A stretch of 64,000 bases of DNA from Lactiplantibacillus xiangfangensis (lineage in GTDB: Bacteria > Bacillota > Bacilli > Lactobacillales > Lactobacillaceae). The stretch spans positions 1 to 64,000 of the forward strand of contig NZ_JQCL01000015.1 in the NCBI RefSeq assembly GCF_001438845.1, in the 5' to 3' direction. A model generated the notes under the pieces. That model made no database searches. It had not been told where the DNA came from and saw only the letters and a program-made list of their open reading frames with translations. How positions within the stretch are numbered: the stretch's first letter is position 1; each line of letters opens with the position of its first letter. Shown in pieces: positions 5,690 to 17,172 of this stretch. Both the position numbers and the translations under genes were made by a program.

Positions 5690-5736
5690 GGACCCTGCTA
5701 ACATGTGGTCGTGGGGCCGGGGCCAACTTCCGAGCA
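5690..5736 (+). repeat. Truncated copy of repeat element B
   Basis: AACATGTGGTCGTGGGGCCGG (5700-5720) matches the 5' arm and shoulder of element B (compare 14976-15144, 34518-34609, 53461-53551), but the 3' arm is missing. The normal AT-rich spacer with CAATAG follows before element A, so this is the remnant of a full B-A pair. Confidence 0.5.
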
Positions 5737-5759
5737 AATAACAATAGTAAAACAGTTTT

Positions 5760-5934
5760 AGCGAAGTCAGGCAGAGTTGGGAGATGCTGTGTCGGCAAGA
5801 TTGGCAGATGTTCCTTAACTGCCAATCTTGCGGGGCAATTCAGAGACGCGGGTTATCGGCTTTGAATTGAGGTTCCAGACCGCACCATGGCTGGAACCGT
5901 CCCCCATAGCACCCCAGCTCTGCCTGACGAAGCG
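5760..5934 (+). repeat. Repeat element A, copy 1
   Basis: About 175 bp folding into a multi-branched structure. The outer helix is GTCAGGCAGAG (5766-5776) with CTCTGCCTGAC (5918-5928). Inside is a long hairpin GCAAGATTGGCAG/CTGCCAATCTTGC, then CAATTCA/TGAATTG, then GGTTCCAG/CTGGAACC. Other copies at 14760, 18539, 34659 and 53600 keep the pairing with different bases. No coding potential. Confidence 0.85.
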
Positions 5935-5944
5935 GTTTACAGCA

Positions 5945-5978
5945 CAAAAAAAGGAGCCGTACGTTAAGTACCAGCTCC
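5945..5978 (-). terminator. Terminator of the SufT-like gene
   Basis: On the minus strand GGAGC..GTAC pairs with GTAC..GCTCC across 5978-5953, followed by seven T residues (5952-5945). Confidence 0.8.
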
Positions 5979-5989
5979 CATGCTTGATA

Positions 5990-6301
5990 TTAATGCAAGC
6001 CTAACTGCAGCTTGGCTTCCCGGCTCATCATGCTTTCGTTCCAGGCCGGTTCAAACGTGATTTCAACTTCAATCGATTTGACCCCGGGTACCTTCATTAA
6101 GGCATCGTGGATGGATCCCGCTAACCATTCCGTTAAGGGACACCCGACAATCGTCAGGGTCATCGTCACGTTCGCAACCCCTTCAGGACTTAGTGTCACG
6201 TCATAAATCAATCCCAAGTTGACTAGATCCACCCCTAATTCTGGATCAATGACCGTCCCTAATGCTGCGAAGGCCTGTTCTTTAAACGATTGCTCACTCA
6301 T
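5990..6301 (-). CDS. SufT/MIP18-family Fe-S assembly factor (DUF59)
   Basis: A 103-residue single-domain protein of the DUF59/MIP18 family (SufT, PaaD, Cia2 relatives), which help load Fe-S clusters into target proteins. DPELGVDLVNLGLIYD (19-34) is the family signature, and Cys54 in VGCPLTEWL is the conserved functional cysteine. The ribosome site AGAGGGG precedes the ATG. It stands alone with its own terminator. A cre-like palindrome with one mismatch (around 6319-6332) lies between promoter and start; I do not count it as a firm cre box. Confidence 0.88.
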   Translation of the reverse strand: MSEQSFKEQAFAALGTVIDPELGVDLVNLGLIYDVTLSPEGVANVTMTLTIVGCPLTEWLAGSIHDALMKVPGVKSIEVEITFEPAWNESMMSREAKLQLGLH

Positions 6302-6438: not shown

Positions 6439-6467
6439 TTGCAAGCGCTTACAAAACCTGTTAGTAT
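6439..6467 (+). promoter_or_regulatory. Promoter with overlapping cre box, upstream of the candidate large RNA
   Basis: TTGCAAGCGCTTACAA (6439-6454) fits the cre pattern WTGNAANCGNWNNCAW fully. A -35 TTGCAA (6439-6444) and -10 TAGTAT (6462-6467) are 17 nt apart, with the cre box covering the -35. Predicted transcription start near 6474. Confidence 0.65.
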
Positions 6468-6473
6468 ACTAAG

Positions 6474-7083
6474 TGAGGAAAGGAATTAATCCTCTTAGCA
6501 AAGCTTCTCAACGTAAAGGGGTTGCCGCTTGAAGTTAGGCAACTGGTTCCACCGTTTGGGTCGTTATCGAAACCGTTTTAAGCGTTGAAATGCGTTATCG
6601 GTCTAATGAATGTCGCGAGACACGCACTGGATGGCTGAACGTTAACCCTTGAATAAACGATAACCGCAACAGAATTAATTGGCATTAGCACGACTATCAG
6701 ATTTTAGCTTCTTAGTTAGAAACAGGTGTCACCAATGACCAGTTGAAAGTTCCATTAGTACCAGTTCCATTGTAGACTCAGGTTCCAAATAGTTTAAACG
6801 GAGGTGCATGTCTGTTACGAAGACATTCCTAAGTTTTAAACGCGAGATCGACTTTCGTTAAAACCCGTTTGACGAGTCGCAATCAAGTAAATCTTTACTT
6901 TCGATCGACTAAAGCAGATAGATACAATAAATACGGGTTAGTCCGTTAGAAGTTGGACACGCGTAAAATTGAATAGCATGAAGGTGTAACGTATTAAAAA
7001 CACTGAACAATTATTTCTTGCTAATCAGGATTATTCCTCATAAGTAGGACTCGAGTTGAGAAGCCTTGGGTCCTATTTTTTTG
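6474..7083 (+). ncRNA. Candidate large structured non-coding RNA (~600 nt)
   Basis: A gene-free stretch framed by its own promoter and terminator. No open frame with a ribosome site is present on either strand. Local helices include GTTGCC/GGCAAC (6521-6526/6538-6543), TGTC-GCGA-GACA with a GNRA loop (6611-6622), GTTATCG/CGATAAC (6594-6600/6658-6664), ATGTCT/AGACAT (6808-6813/6821-6826) and AACCCGT/ACGGGTT (6862-6868/6933-6939). The 5' end GTGAGGAA (6472-6479) can pair with TTCCTCAT (7033-7040) next to the terminator, closing the whole molecule. The size and layout recall the ornate large RNAs (ROOL, GOLLD class), but I cannot assign it to a family from memory. Confidence 0.6.
7043..7083 (+). 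terminator. Terminator of the candidate large RNA
   Basis: TAGGAC (7045-7050) pairs with GTCCTA (7070-7075), extended by inner C-G pairs, followed by seven T residues. Confidence 0.8.
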
Positions 7084-7093
7084 CGTTCTTTTT

Positions 7094-7130
7094 TGTAATC
7101 GTTTACACAGCTAGCTGGAACTCGTATACT
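7094..7130 (+). promoter_or_regulatory. Promoter and cre box of the aldo/keto reductase
   Basis: TGTAATCGTTTACA (7094-7107) is a perfect cre box. It overlaps the -35 TTTACA (7102-7107), which lies 17 nt from the -10 TATACT (7125-7130). The arrangement is the same as in front of pflB. Confidence 0.8.
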
Positions 7131-7160: not shown

Positions 7161-8081
7161 TTGAAAACCATTAATTTAGGTCACAGCGGCTTACAAGCTT
7201 CCGCCGTCGCCCTGGGCATCATGCGTATGGACGCCCTGAACGTCGATCAAGCCACGAAAGTCATCGAAACTGCCGTGAACTTGGGTATTAATTACGTCGA
7301 CTCTGCCGATATTTATGGCGGTGGCAAATCATCTGAAATTTTCGGTGCGGCCCTAAAGCAATCTAGTGTTAGCCGCGATCAGCTTTACATTCAATCCAAG
7401 GGCGGCATCGTCCCTGGCAAACGCTATGATTTCTCCAAACAACATATTTTAGATGCCGTTGACGGTGAATTAAAGCGCCTAGGCGTCGACTACTTAGATA
7501 GCTTTCTCCTTCACCGCCCCGACGCTTTAATGGAACCAGAGGATGTCGCAGCTGCCTTTGACAAGCTTCAGGCTAGTGGCAAGGTCCGGCATTTTGGGGT
7601 CTCCAACTTCAACCCGGGTCAGGTGGACTTACTTCAAGCCGCGCTCAACCAGCGCCTGATGATCAACCAATTACAATTCGGTATCATGCATACTAACGCC
7701 ATTGACTTCGGCTTACACACTAACATGCAAGATGACCGTAGCATCGATCATGATGGCGGCGTGATTGAATACGCCCGCTTACACAAGATGACGATCCAAG
7801 CATGGTCCCCTTATCAATACGGAAACTTCGCCGGGATCTTCTTAGATAATCCTAAGTTTCCTAAGTTAAACGCAGCTATGCAGGACCTTGCTGACGAAAA
7901 GCACACCAGTAAGAGTGCCATTGCAACGGCCTGGATTTTACGCCATCCCGCTAAGTTCCAAGTTATCTTAGGCACAATGAATCCAACCCACCTCGCTGAA
8001 AATGCGGCGGGTGCGGATATCAATTTGACCCGGCAAGAATGGTATGACATTTACTTCGCTGCTGGGAACGATTTACCGTAA
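7161..8081 (+). CDS. Aldo/keto reductase (YdhF-like)
   Basis: A 306-residue NADPH-dependent oxidoreductase of the AKR superfamily. The catalytic tetrad is visible as Asp47 and Tyr52 (YVDSADIYGGG), Lys80 (QSKGG) and His118 (LLHRP). It resembles the YdhF-type oxidoreductases; the physiological substrate is not evident. The start is TTG 7161, with AGGAGG (7147-7152) 8 nt upstream. It is monocistronic, under a cre-covered promoter, so probably repressed by CcpA on preferred sugars, and ends in a strong terminator. Confidence 0.9.
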   Translation: MKTINLGHSGLQASAVALGIMRMDALNVDQATKVIETAVNLGINYVDSADIYGGGKSSEIFGAALKQSSVSRDQLYIQSKGGIVPGKRYDFSKQHILDAVDGELKRLGVDYLDSFLLHRPDALMEPEDVAAAFDKLQASGKVRHFGVSNFNPGQVDLLQAALNQRLMINQLQFGIMHTNAIDFGLHTNMQDDRSIDHDGGVIEYARLHKMTIQAWSPYQYGNFAGIFLDNPKFPKLNAAMQDLADEKHTSKSAIATAWILRHPAKFQVILGTMNPTHLAENAAGADINLTRQEWYDIYFAAGNDLP

Positions 8082-16885: not shown

Positions 16886-16927
16886 ACGGGCCCGTACGGC
16901 AAAAAGAGCAGCTGTACGGACCCGTCG
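16886..16927 (-). terminator. Expression-platform hairpin of the purine riboswitch
   Basis: On the minus strand ACGGGTCCGTAC pairs with GTACGGGCCCGT, followed by a modest U-rich tail (TTTGCTTTCT). It is the likely terminator stem controlled by the aptamer, although the U-tract is imperfect. Confidence 0.6.
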
Positions 16928-16931
16928 ACTC

Positions 16932-17005
16932 AATTCGCTTATAGTCCAGCATTTACGGTGCTGGGTAGAAACTCGCCATCCTTATCACGGCATTATATAG
17001 GCAAT
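16932..17005 (-). promoter_or_regulatory. Purine riboswitch aptamer (guanine-type)
   Basis: The minus strand shows the purine aptamer core: TATAAT (J1/2), the L2 loop GATAAGG, GTTTCTACC (J2/3), the L3 loop CCGTAAA and GGACTATAAG (3' P1). P1 pairs GCcTATA with TATAaGC. The discriminating residue before UAU is C, as in guanine/hypoxanthine switches; adenine switches have U. It lies directly upstream of ade. Confidence 0.9.
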
Positions 17006-17172
17006 TTGTTTTGGTTTTAAGTTGTCGCTTACCTTACCAGAATTTTTTCATAAATGCAACTTCAACTTCTATAATCCTTTTGAGCGATTAATGTTCTCAC
17101 TCGCCCCTGATTAGGCTAAAATTAAAGTATATAAATAATGATAATTAAATAGCTATAATAGGAGCTGATTTT

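Follow-up and report, generated by a model that had tools for sequence, protein, structure and literature searches.

A conserved large structured RNA with a candidate CcpA site over its promoter in Lactiplantibacillus and related Lactobacillaceae

The window, by which we mean the whole 64,000-nt stretch of Lactiplantibacillus xiangfangensis DNA that was analyzed, contains at positions 6439-7083 a stretch between two genes, one on the minus strand that encodes an iron-sulfur assembly-type protein (5990-6301) and one on the plus strand that encodes an aldo/keto reductase (7161-8081). Genes for a pyruvate formate-lyase and for a radical-SAM (activase-type) protein are situated upstream. The stretch contains the following features:

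6439-6454, plus strand: cre (candidate CcpA site) TTGCAAGCGCTTACAA, the sole perfect 16-mer match to WTGNAARCGNWWWCAW in the window
6439-6444, plus strand: -35 box TTGCAA, inside cre TTGCAAGCGCTTACAA
6462-6467, plus strand: -10 box TAGTAT after a 17-nt spacer, from the sequence and aligned in relatives
6473-7082, plus strand: predicted large structured non-coding RNA, ~610 nt, its ends placed from promoter and terminator
7042-7082, plus strand: intrinsic terminator, stem 7042-7055/7065-7078, T7 at 7076-7082

The original prediction, made from the sequence of the stretch, had proposed a promoter TTGCAA-N17-TAGTAT within a full cre match and a terminator with T7, and both were borne out. When one mismatch is allowed to WTGNAARCGNWWWCAW, which we take to be the cre consensus, the window contains eight matches at six places, two of them counted on both strands, versus 2.4 expected, and one of 100 shuffles gets to eight. 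Two cre-like sites with one mismatch are located at 2404-2419, upstream of pflB, and at 7093-7108, in the promoter region of the aldo/keto reductase gene, so that together with 6439-6454 there are three cre sites within 5 kb.

The RNA has a single match in its own genome and is present in 21 of 21 Lactiplantibacillus genomes. A DNA search of a sample of 397 Lactobacillaceae genomes identified 60 with a match at E<=0.01; 39 of these are outside Lactiplantibacillus, 28 matching through the 5′ end and the remainder through other parts, some surely by chance. A pattern made of the promoter and the 5′ end retrieved 45 records from 84,980 species, namely 44 from Lactobacillaceae and one from Erysipelotrichaceae (L118), which we judged to be a chance match; it gave no 3′ end, and by our own estimate about two chance matches to the pattern are expected. 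Core model R1 (window 6854-6990; 141 positions with only 3 base pairs, made from 27 RNAs) matched 47 of the 397 family genomes, in seven genera, and in 395 genomes of the order it matched 10 Lactobacillaceae plus one false positive; the R1 match in a genome of another family (G682) sits in an apparent SMC gene and was rejected. Core model R2, derived from Levilactobacillus RNAs, matched 25 of the 397 family genomes, of which 24 are Levilactobacillus and one belongs to g38. Neither model matches genome G100 (g39), whose RNA was found through its terminator. RNAs of a common plan thus occur in nine Lactobacillaceae genera, designated g1, g3, g5 (Pediococcus), g16 (Levilactobacillus), g38, g39, g42 (Furfurilactobacillus), g43 and g51, and one g38 genome contains two RNA copies. 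Genome G099 carries two diverged copies, L160 and L049. The g38 RNA L187 (genome G129) has a Levilactobacillus-type core (E 3.7e-7); the other g38 members found have a Lactiplantibacillus-type core.

The collected set comprises 71 RNAs of 449-1108 nt. It includes 22 named-record Levilactobacillus RNAs and leaves out ten Levilactobacillus loci (L053-L057, L061, L062, L064-L066); named-record RNAs total 43, and the other 21 were left out, mostly for coming from genomes already represented. We also dropped the truncated record L088, whose 3′ end was not obtained, and the locus from genome G116 (L072), which reads as coding. Loci L070 and L069 from g47 (genomes G072 and G107) were rejected as members, having in common with the RNA the promoter only; there, a cre-overlapped promoter is followed by a short leader and an apparent T-box-controlled threonyl-tRNA synthetase gene.

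A cre was found 31-34 nt ahead of the start used in 71 of 71 collected RNAs. Compared to TGNAANCGNWWNCA, 61 RNAs show no mismatch and 10 show one; compared to the stricter 16-mer, 20 are perfect, 40 show one mismatch, eight show two and three show three. Because many of these RNAs came from searches that included the promoter, the fair test for the cre is given by loci found without it, and all 15 such new loci that were opened contain the site (ten found via R1, that of G100 via its terminator, and four via R2). An eleventh R1 locus, L169, was taken to be the pattern-scan record L088 and not counted as new; likewise, five further loci were opened from the 25 R2 matches, of which L187-L190 are new and L191 was taken to be record L111. 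The position of the site over the -35 box suggests that the RNA is very probably repressed by CcpA.

The genes bordering the RNA change between and within genera, which argues against cis-regulation of the downstream gene and for an RNA that in all likelihood acts in trans. In Lactiplantibacillus the upstream neighbor is the iron-sulfur protein gene, a serine hydrolase-like gene or another gene, and in 19 of 21 loci one of the two genes that follow is an aldo/keto reductase gene in the same direction; in Pediococcus a small membrane protein is encoded upstream, and in Levilactobacillus the RNA is preceded by a gene for an NAD-binding protein and followed by a phosphopentomutase-like gene (gene names outside the window are our reading of translations; only window proteins were scanned). 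The recurrent reductase gene could indicate that the transcript is a long 5′ leader, and the open frames found in individual RNAs, of up to 88 codons, could conceal a gene for a small protein. We consider both very improbable. The RNA has its own terminator, and the downstream genes vary by genus and can be convergent. A hidden conserved frame, which the original prediction had named among the results that would speak against it, was searched for, and no frame is conserved among the collected RNAs: those present differ in place or length. In 12 of 22 Levilactobacillus RNAs a frame of 25 to 63 codons starts at a common GTG, and this GTG is within a strand of helix P2 described below. The window species has a 17-codon frame after GGAGGUGC, which we rejected as a gene since, by our reading, it lies on an invariant hairpin, shows mostly replacement changes and has lost its start in L023. 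Moreover, Lactiplantibacillus substitutions are evenly distributed modulo 3 (554/550/517) and 205 of 218 indels have lengths not divisible by 3, both counted against one reference and among related species that are not independent.

The predicted fold of the RNA contains the following elements:

6473-6480, plus strand: P1 5′ strand GUGAGGAA, pairs with 7034-7041
7034-7041, plus strand: P1 3′ strand UUCCUCAU, pairs with 6473-6480
6489-6492/7028-7031, plus strand: P1b AUCC/GGAU, weak, 79% of cells paired
6495-6501, plus strand: P2 5′ strand UUAGCAA, from covariation analysis and cross-genus complementarity
7018-7024, plus strand: P2 3′ strand UUGCUAA, from covariation analysis and cross-genus complementarity
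6503-6511, plus strand: pseudoknot 5′ strand GCUUCUCAA, pairs with the terminator loop 7056-7064
7056-7064, plus strand: pseudoknot 3′ strand, terminator loop UUGAGAAGC, pairs with 6503-6511
6520-6544, plus strand: hairpin GGUUGCC/GGCAACU, compensatory change in 3 of 7 pairs
6563-6664, plus strand: 5′ multi-helix module, with outer helix 6563-6569/6658-6664, inner helices and GNRA hairpin 6612-6621
6799-6990, plus strand: conserved core, from alignments, with the GGAGGUG region, an ACCCGU/ACGGGU helix (6862-6868/6933-6939) and AAUUGAAU..UGAAGGUGUAA

Folding of the single sequence gave a modestly stable structure (z -2.0, 0 of 20 shuffles), which is not decisive. Alignment of orthologs, which had been proposed along with the original prediction, yielded structure-restricted tests far above tree-aware nulls. 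In 16 of the 21 Lactiplantibacillus RNAs (alignment A2), 97.0% of cells pair, versus 35-43% with the partner slid, and two-sided changes affect 17 pairs and 53 cells (shuffles, 17.6 cells; 0 of 500 get to the observed value); further pair types are no more numerous than in shuffles, 409 of 500 of which get to the observed count. Against a null preserving the tree and the substitutions of each branch (116 pairs, pseudoknot excluded), and with structures that came from the same alignments, summed covariation was 154 versus 0.3 +- 16.5 and there were 53 compensatory cells versus 10.8 +- 4.6 (0 of 300 nulls for each). The corresponding values for 20 of the 22 Levilactobacillus RNAs (alignment A3) were 110 versus -0.3 +- 26 and 58 versus 22.2, again in 0 of 300 nulls; the number of A3 pairs with compensatory change, 14, is attained by 22 of 300 nulls. 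RNAalifold reported compensatory change in 17 of 130 and 14 of 105 pairs. Scans of all alignment columns, which used a tree-aware null, were underpowered. None of the pairs in 21 Lactiplantibacillus RNAs attained E<=0.05; a single one, in the terminator, attained E 0.05 when the ends of 47 RNAs were joined. A further scan likewise gave none at E<=0.05; at E<=1 it produced two pairs in Lactiplantibacillus, of which one (E 0.12) was base-pair-like and the other (E 0.5) was not, and a single pair, not base-pair-like, among 26 Levilactobacillus RNAs (E 0.17). The same scan of 37 cores produced no pair at that level. In the terminator, alignment pair 657/682 is A-U in nine RNAs and G-C in six.

The original prediction included a closing helix between both ends of the RNA. 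The helix is real, although its coordinates had been placed one base off (6472-6479/7033-7040 instead of 6473-6480/7034-7041), and our analysis adds to it P2, inside the closing helix, and the pseudoknot. P1 is invariant within Lactiplantibacillus, so that its support comes from the differing paired sequences of other genera: GAGGAAAGG/CCUUUCCUC in Pediococcus, GUGGAAA/UUUCCAC in g51, CGGAAAGG/CCUUUCCG and CGUAGAAAGG/CCUUUCUACG in Levilactobacillus, AGAUAGCUUGG/CCAAGCUAUCU in g43, and GGGAG/CUCCC in G100, where it adjoins an 11-pair P2. The sequence of P2 also varies by genus with its complementarity kept, scoring 18.8 with its own partner versus 11.2 across genera (46 RNAs, 1516 cross pairs); the values for g51 were 10.9 versus 10.5, with test windows that missed P2. 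The pseudoknot strand, CUUCUC(AA), lies directly 3′ of P2. Within Lactiplantibacillus, 94% of pseudoknot cells are paired with no two-sided change, and in g51 the pairing is compensated to CUCCUC/GAGGAG (own 24.8 versus cross 10.0). Own scores also exceed cross scores in Lactiplantibacillus (21.4 versus 16.5) and Pediococcus (21.1 versus 16.7), barely do so in Furfurilactobacillus (18.0 versus 17.0), and are not above cross-genus scores in g38, g3 and g39 (6-7 pairs). The motif with at least six pairs was found in 46 of 49 RNAs outside Levilactobacillus; among these 49 it was not found in that of P. claussenii (L063) and in two from g43. No clear pseudoknot is present among the 22 Levilactobacillus RNAs, and their membership of the family rests on architecture, without pseudoknot, sharing with the other types the cre promoter, P1, P2 and the terminator. 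R2 finds no core in 13 loci of other types, its one match (E 0.5) being outside the RNA. Compensatory change supports the proposed fold, in which P1, P2 and base pairing between terminator loop and 5′ end would lock the ends, and the stretch almost certainly encodes a structured RNA.

The GNRA-capped helix that had been predicted was located at 6612-6621 (GUC-GCGA-GAC), inside the 5′ module; a search pattern for a GNRA loop at this hairpin matched 17 of 21 Lactiplantibacillus RNAs, and not four. Helices 6-10 of the 5′ module region show compensatory changes. A 5′ module is duplicated in three genera, with up to 6 copies, and the units are in the 5′ half of the RNA. A 67-69-nt unit is present in 1, 4, 6, 2 and 2 copies in five g51 genomes, and three Pediococcus RNAs (L043, L051, L050) have two copies each of a ~110-nt unit, the duplication of L050 being seen by BLAST in an RNA for which the repeat finder listed none. 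In genome G018, BLAST identifies four copies, an approximate figure given a run of N, of a unit that spans up to ~170 nt and contains window helices 6563-6664. The window RNA has no duplicated unit and one module copy. The Lactiplantibacillus and Pediococcus units do not match each other, so the duplications look independent. Changes in module copy number can be neutral.

Over the RNA of the window, and likewise at nine loci from relatives, no match was obtained with any of 4227 Rfam families, and the best match in a relaxed scan of the window RNA was group-II-D1D4-5, with E 3.5. The library presumably includes the models for ROOL, GOLLD and OLE, and the relationship to these RNAs raised in the original prediction is thus not supported. 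The published motifs of Lactobacillales listed in PMC2864571 were covered by these scans when they have Rfam numbers; Lacto-int has no Rfam number in the table of that source. We found no published description of the RNA in the open-licence PMC literature.

As in the RNA described here, ROOL, GOLLD and OLE are large with an ornate secondary structure, and ROOL and GOLLD have pseudoknots, according to the portions of PMC12286853 considered here, which also describe homo-oligomers of large ornate RNAs. It could be, then, that our RNA forms an RNA-only assembly in which the oligomeric particle is the functional unit and the modules form its periphery, and features that fit with this idea are its comparable size, a long closing helix, the pseudoknot, the GNRA loops and the presence of invariant motifs. 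We regard it as unlikely, given the absence of any Rfam match and the spread of lengths (449-1108 nt), which fits poorly with a symmetric cage. ROOL and GOLLD are, moreover, encoded in phages or prophages, often near tRNA islands (PMC12286853, in part), unlike the present RNA, which is among metabolic genes and has a cre promoter: no tRNA was found in the window, and no viral contig contains the promoter/5′ pattern, so that we discarded a phage origin. A plasmid location was also discarded, since the P. claussenii RNA, used as one query, had no match in 72,556 plasmid records.

RsaI from Staphylococcus aureus is also under CcpA control and is much shorter than the present RNA. By analogy, the RNA might be a base-pairing riboregulator whose exposed segments, with one or few seeds, pair with mRNAs for sugar uptake or pyruvate metabolism; RsaI itself binds mRNAs via a C-rich region (PMC8216469, in part). 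Besides the CcpA-site promoter, the pyrimidine-rich CUUCUC and purine-rich GGAGGUG segments and the conserved AAUUGAAUA and UGAAGGUGUAA are compatible with such an activity. This seems to us rather unlikely, because the pyrimidine-rich strands are already engaged in P1 and in the pseudoknot and because 600 nt of conserved structure exceed what a seed needs.

6S RNA is about 190 nt long and has a fold other than that of the present RNA. Nevertheless, SD-like GGAGGU and GAAAGGA segments might indicate a ribosome- or polymerase-binding RNA, comparable to 6S or tmRNA. The 6S RNA of lactic acid bacteria is also a free-standing non-coding RNA, with a cre at the promoter in about one third of the species, and that of Lactococcus lactis is repressed by CcpA, as stated in passages of PMC8414754. 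We deem this improbable, because a 6S candidate distinct from this RNA is encoded elsewhere in the genome (40.4 bits, below the Rfam cut-off of 46.4), RF00013 gave no match at the RNA, and no tmRNA was found in the window.

By sequence comparison, we thus recognize a conserved gene with a conserved structure and cre, changing neighbors and duplicated modules. From this we are about evenly inclined to accept, as a whole, that it encodes a stand-alone, trans-acting, CcpA-repressed large structured RNA of a family outside Rfam that may be a multivalent sponge or scaffold. In the presence of glucose, CcpA with HPr-Ser-P would occupy the cre over the -35 box and block transcription; on poor sugars, the RNA would be transcribed up to its own terminator. 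Its body, locked at both ends by P1, P2 and the terminator-loop pseudoknot, would probably be stabilized, and the RNA would accumulate once glucose runs out, by analogy with the CcpA-repressed 6S and RosA RNAs. The 5′ modules would most likely be repeated binding sites in a species-dependent copy number, and the RNA, as a multivalent sponge or scaffold, would engage a protein or a second RNA and thereby adjust metabolism after glucose exhaustion. We favor this last role, tentatively and with a putative partner, because the locked ends suggest a stable RNA and the modules suggest several equal binding sites; the multivalent reading derives mainly from the tandem modules. A sponge role is known for RosA from Bacillus subtilis, which is also a stand-alone CcpA-repressed RNA and titrates other RNAs; its predicted CcpA site is at -1 to +12, unlike the cre over the -35 box found here, and, comparing by description, the parts of PMC8216469 considered here mention for RosA no large closed multi-helix body like that of our RNA.

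To our knowledge, few large structured RNAs have been described from bacteria, and most of them lack an assigned function. Of the sampled genomes of a food genus in wide use, 21 of 21 contain the RNA described here, which also occurs in close relatives, and its predicted CcpA switch offers a physiological clue, so that its function can be tested directly in food bacteria that are tractable. The RNA would bring a large-RNA layer to carbon catabolite control, and the differing number of modules between species is a natural experiment on multivalency. It is conceivable, if on balance doubtful, that it represents a new class of chromosomal, catabolite-controlled multivalent large RNAs, end-locked by a terminator-loop pseudoknot and with a number of binding modules tuned by evolution, that organize, as sponges or scaffolds, the metabolism of glucose-starved lactobacilli.

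Such RNAs would possibly be among the most abundant transcripts of glucose-starved lactobacilli, and PECL_2059 from P. claussenii would be an instance of them. MRS is a glucose-rich medium. The non-coding RNA PECL_2059 is induced 32-fold in beer, where glucose is too low to be detected (PMC3765258, in part). Genome G143 is that of P. claussenii ATCC BAA-344, the first 3000 bases of its contig C3 being identical to plasmid NC_016607.1, and our RNA is located at 175,189-175,831 of contig C1. PECL_2059, which comes from this strain too, is a candidate match for this RNA; if they are the same, its expression and its induction without glucose would already be on record.

The LPSMs (Wels 2009), or 'supermotifs', of L. 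plantarum are, like the present RNA, large intergenic transcribed elements; those portions of PMC5643018 considered here describe them as many-copy and restricted to L. plantarum, in contrast to the one match of our RNA in its own genome and to its distribution across genera. A different element of the window, at 5735-5955, is perhaps related to them: it is ~200 nt long, forms a predicted three-armed cruciform (fold z-score -9.4) and has at least 40 matches in its genome, the other 39 at 76-85% identity, among the 40 of 85 candidates that were scored. The only Rfam match in the window, away from the RNA, is a purine riboswitch (RF00167, 70 bits) at 16922-17020 on the minus strand, at the start of a minus-strand adenine deaminase-like gene.
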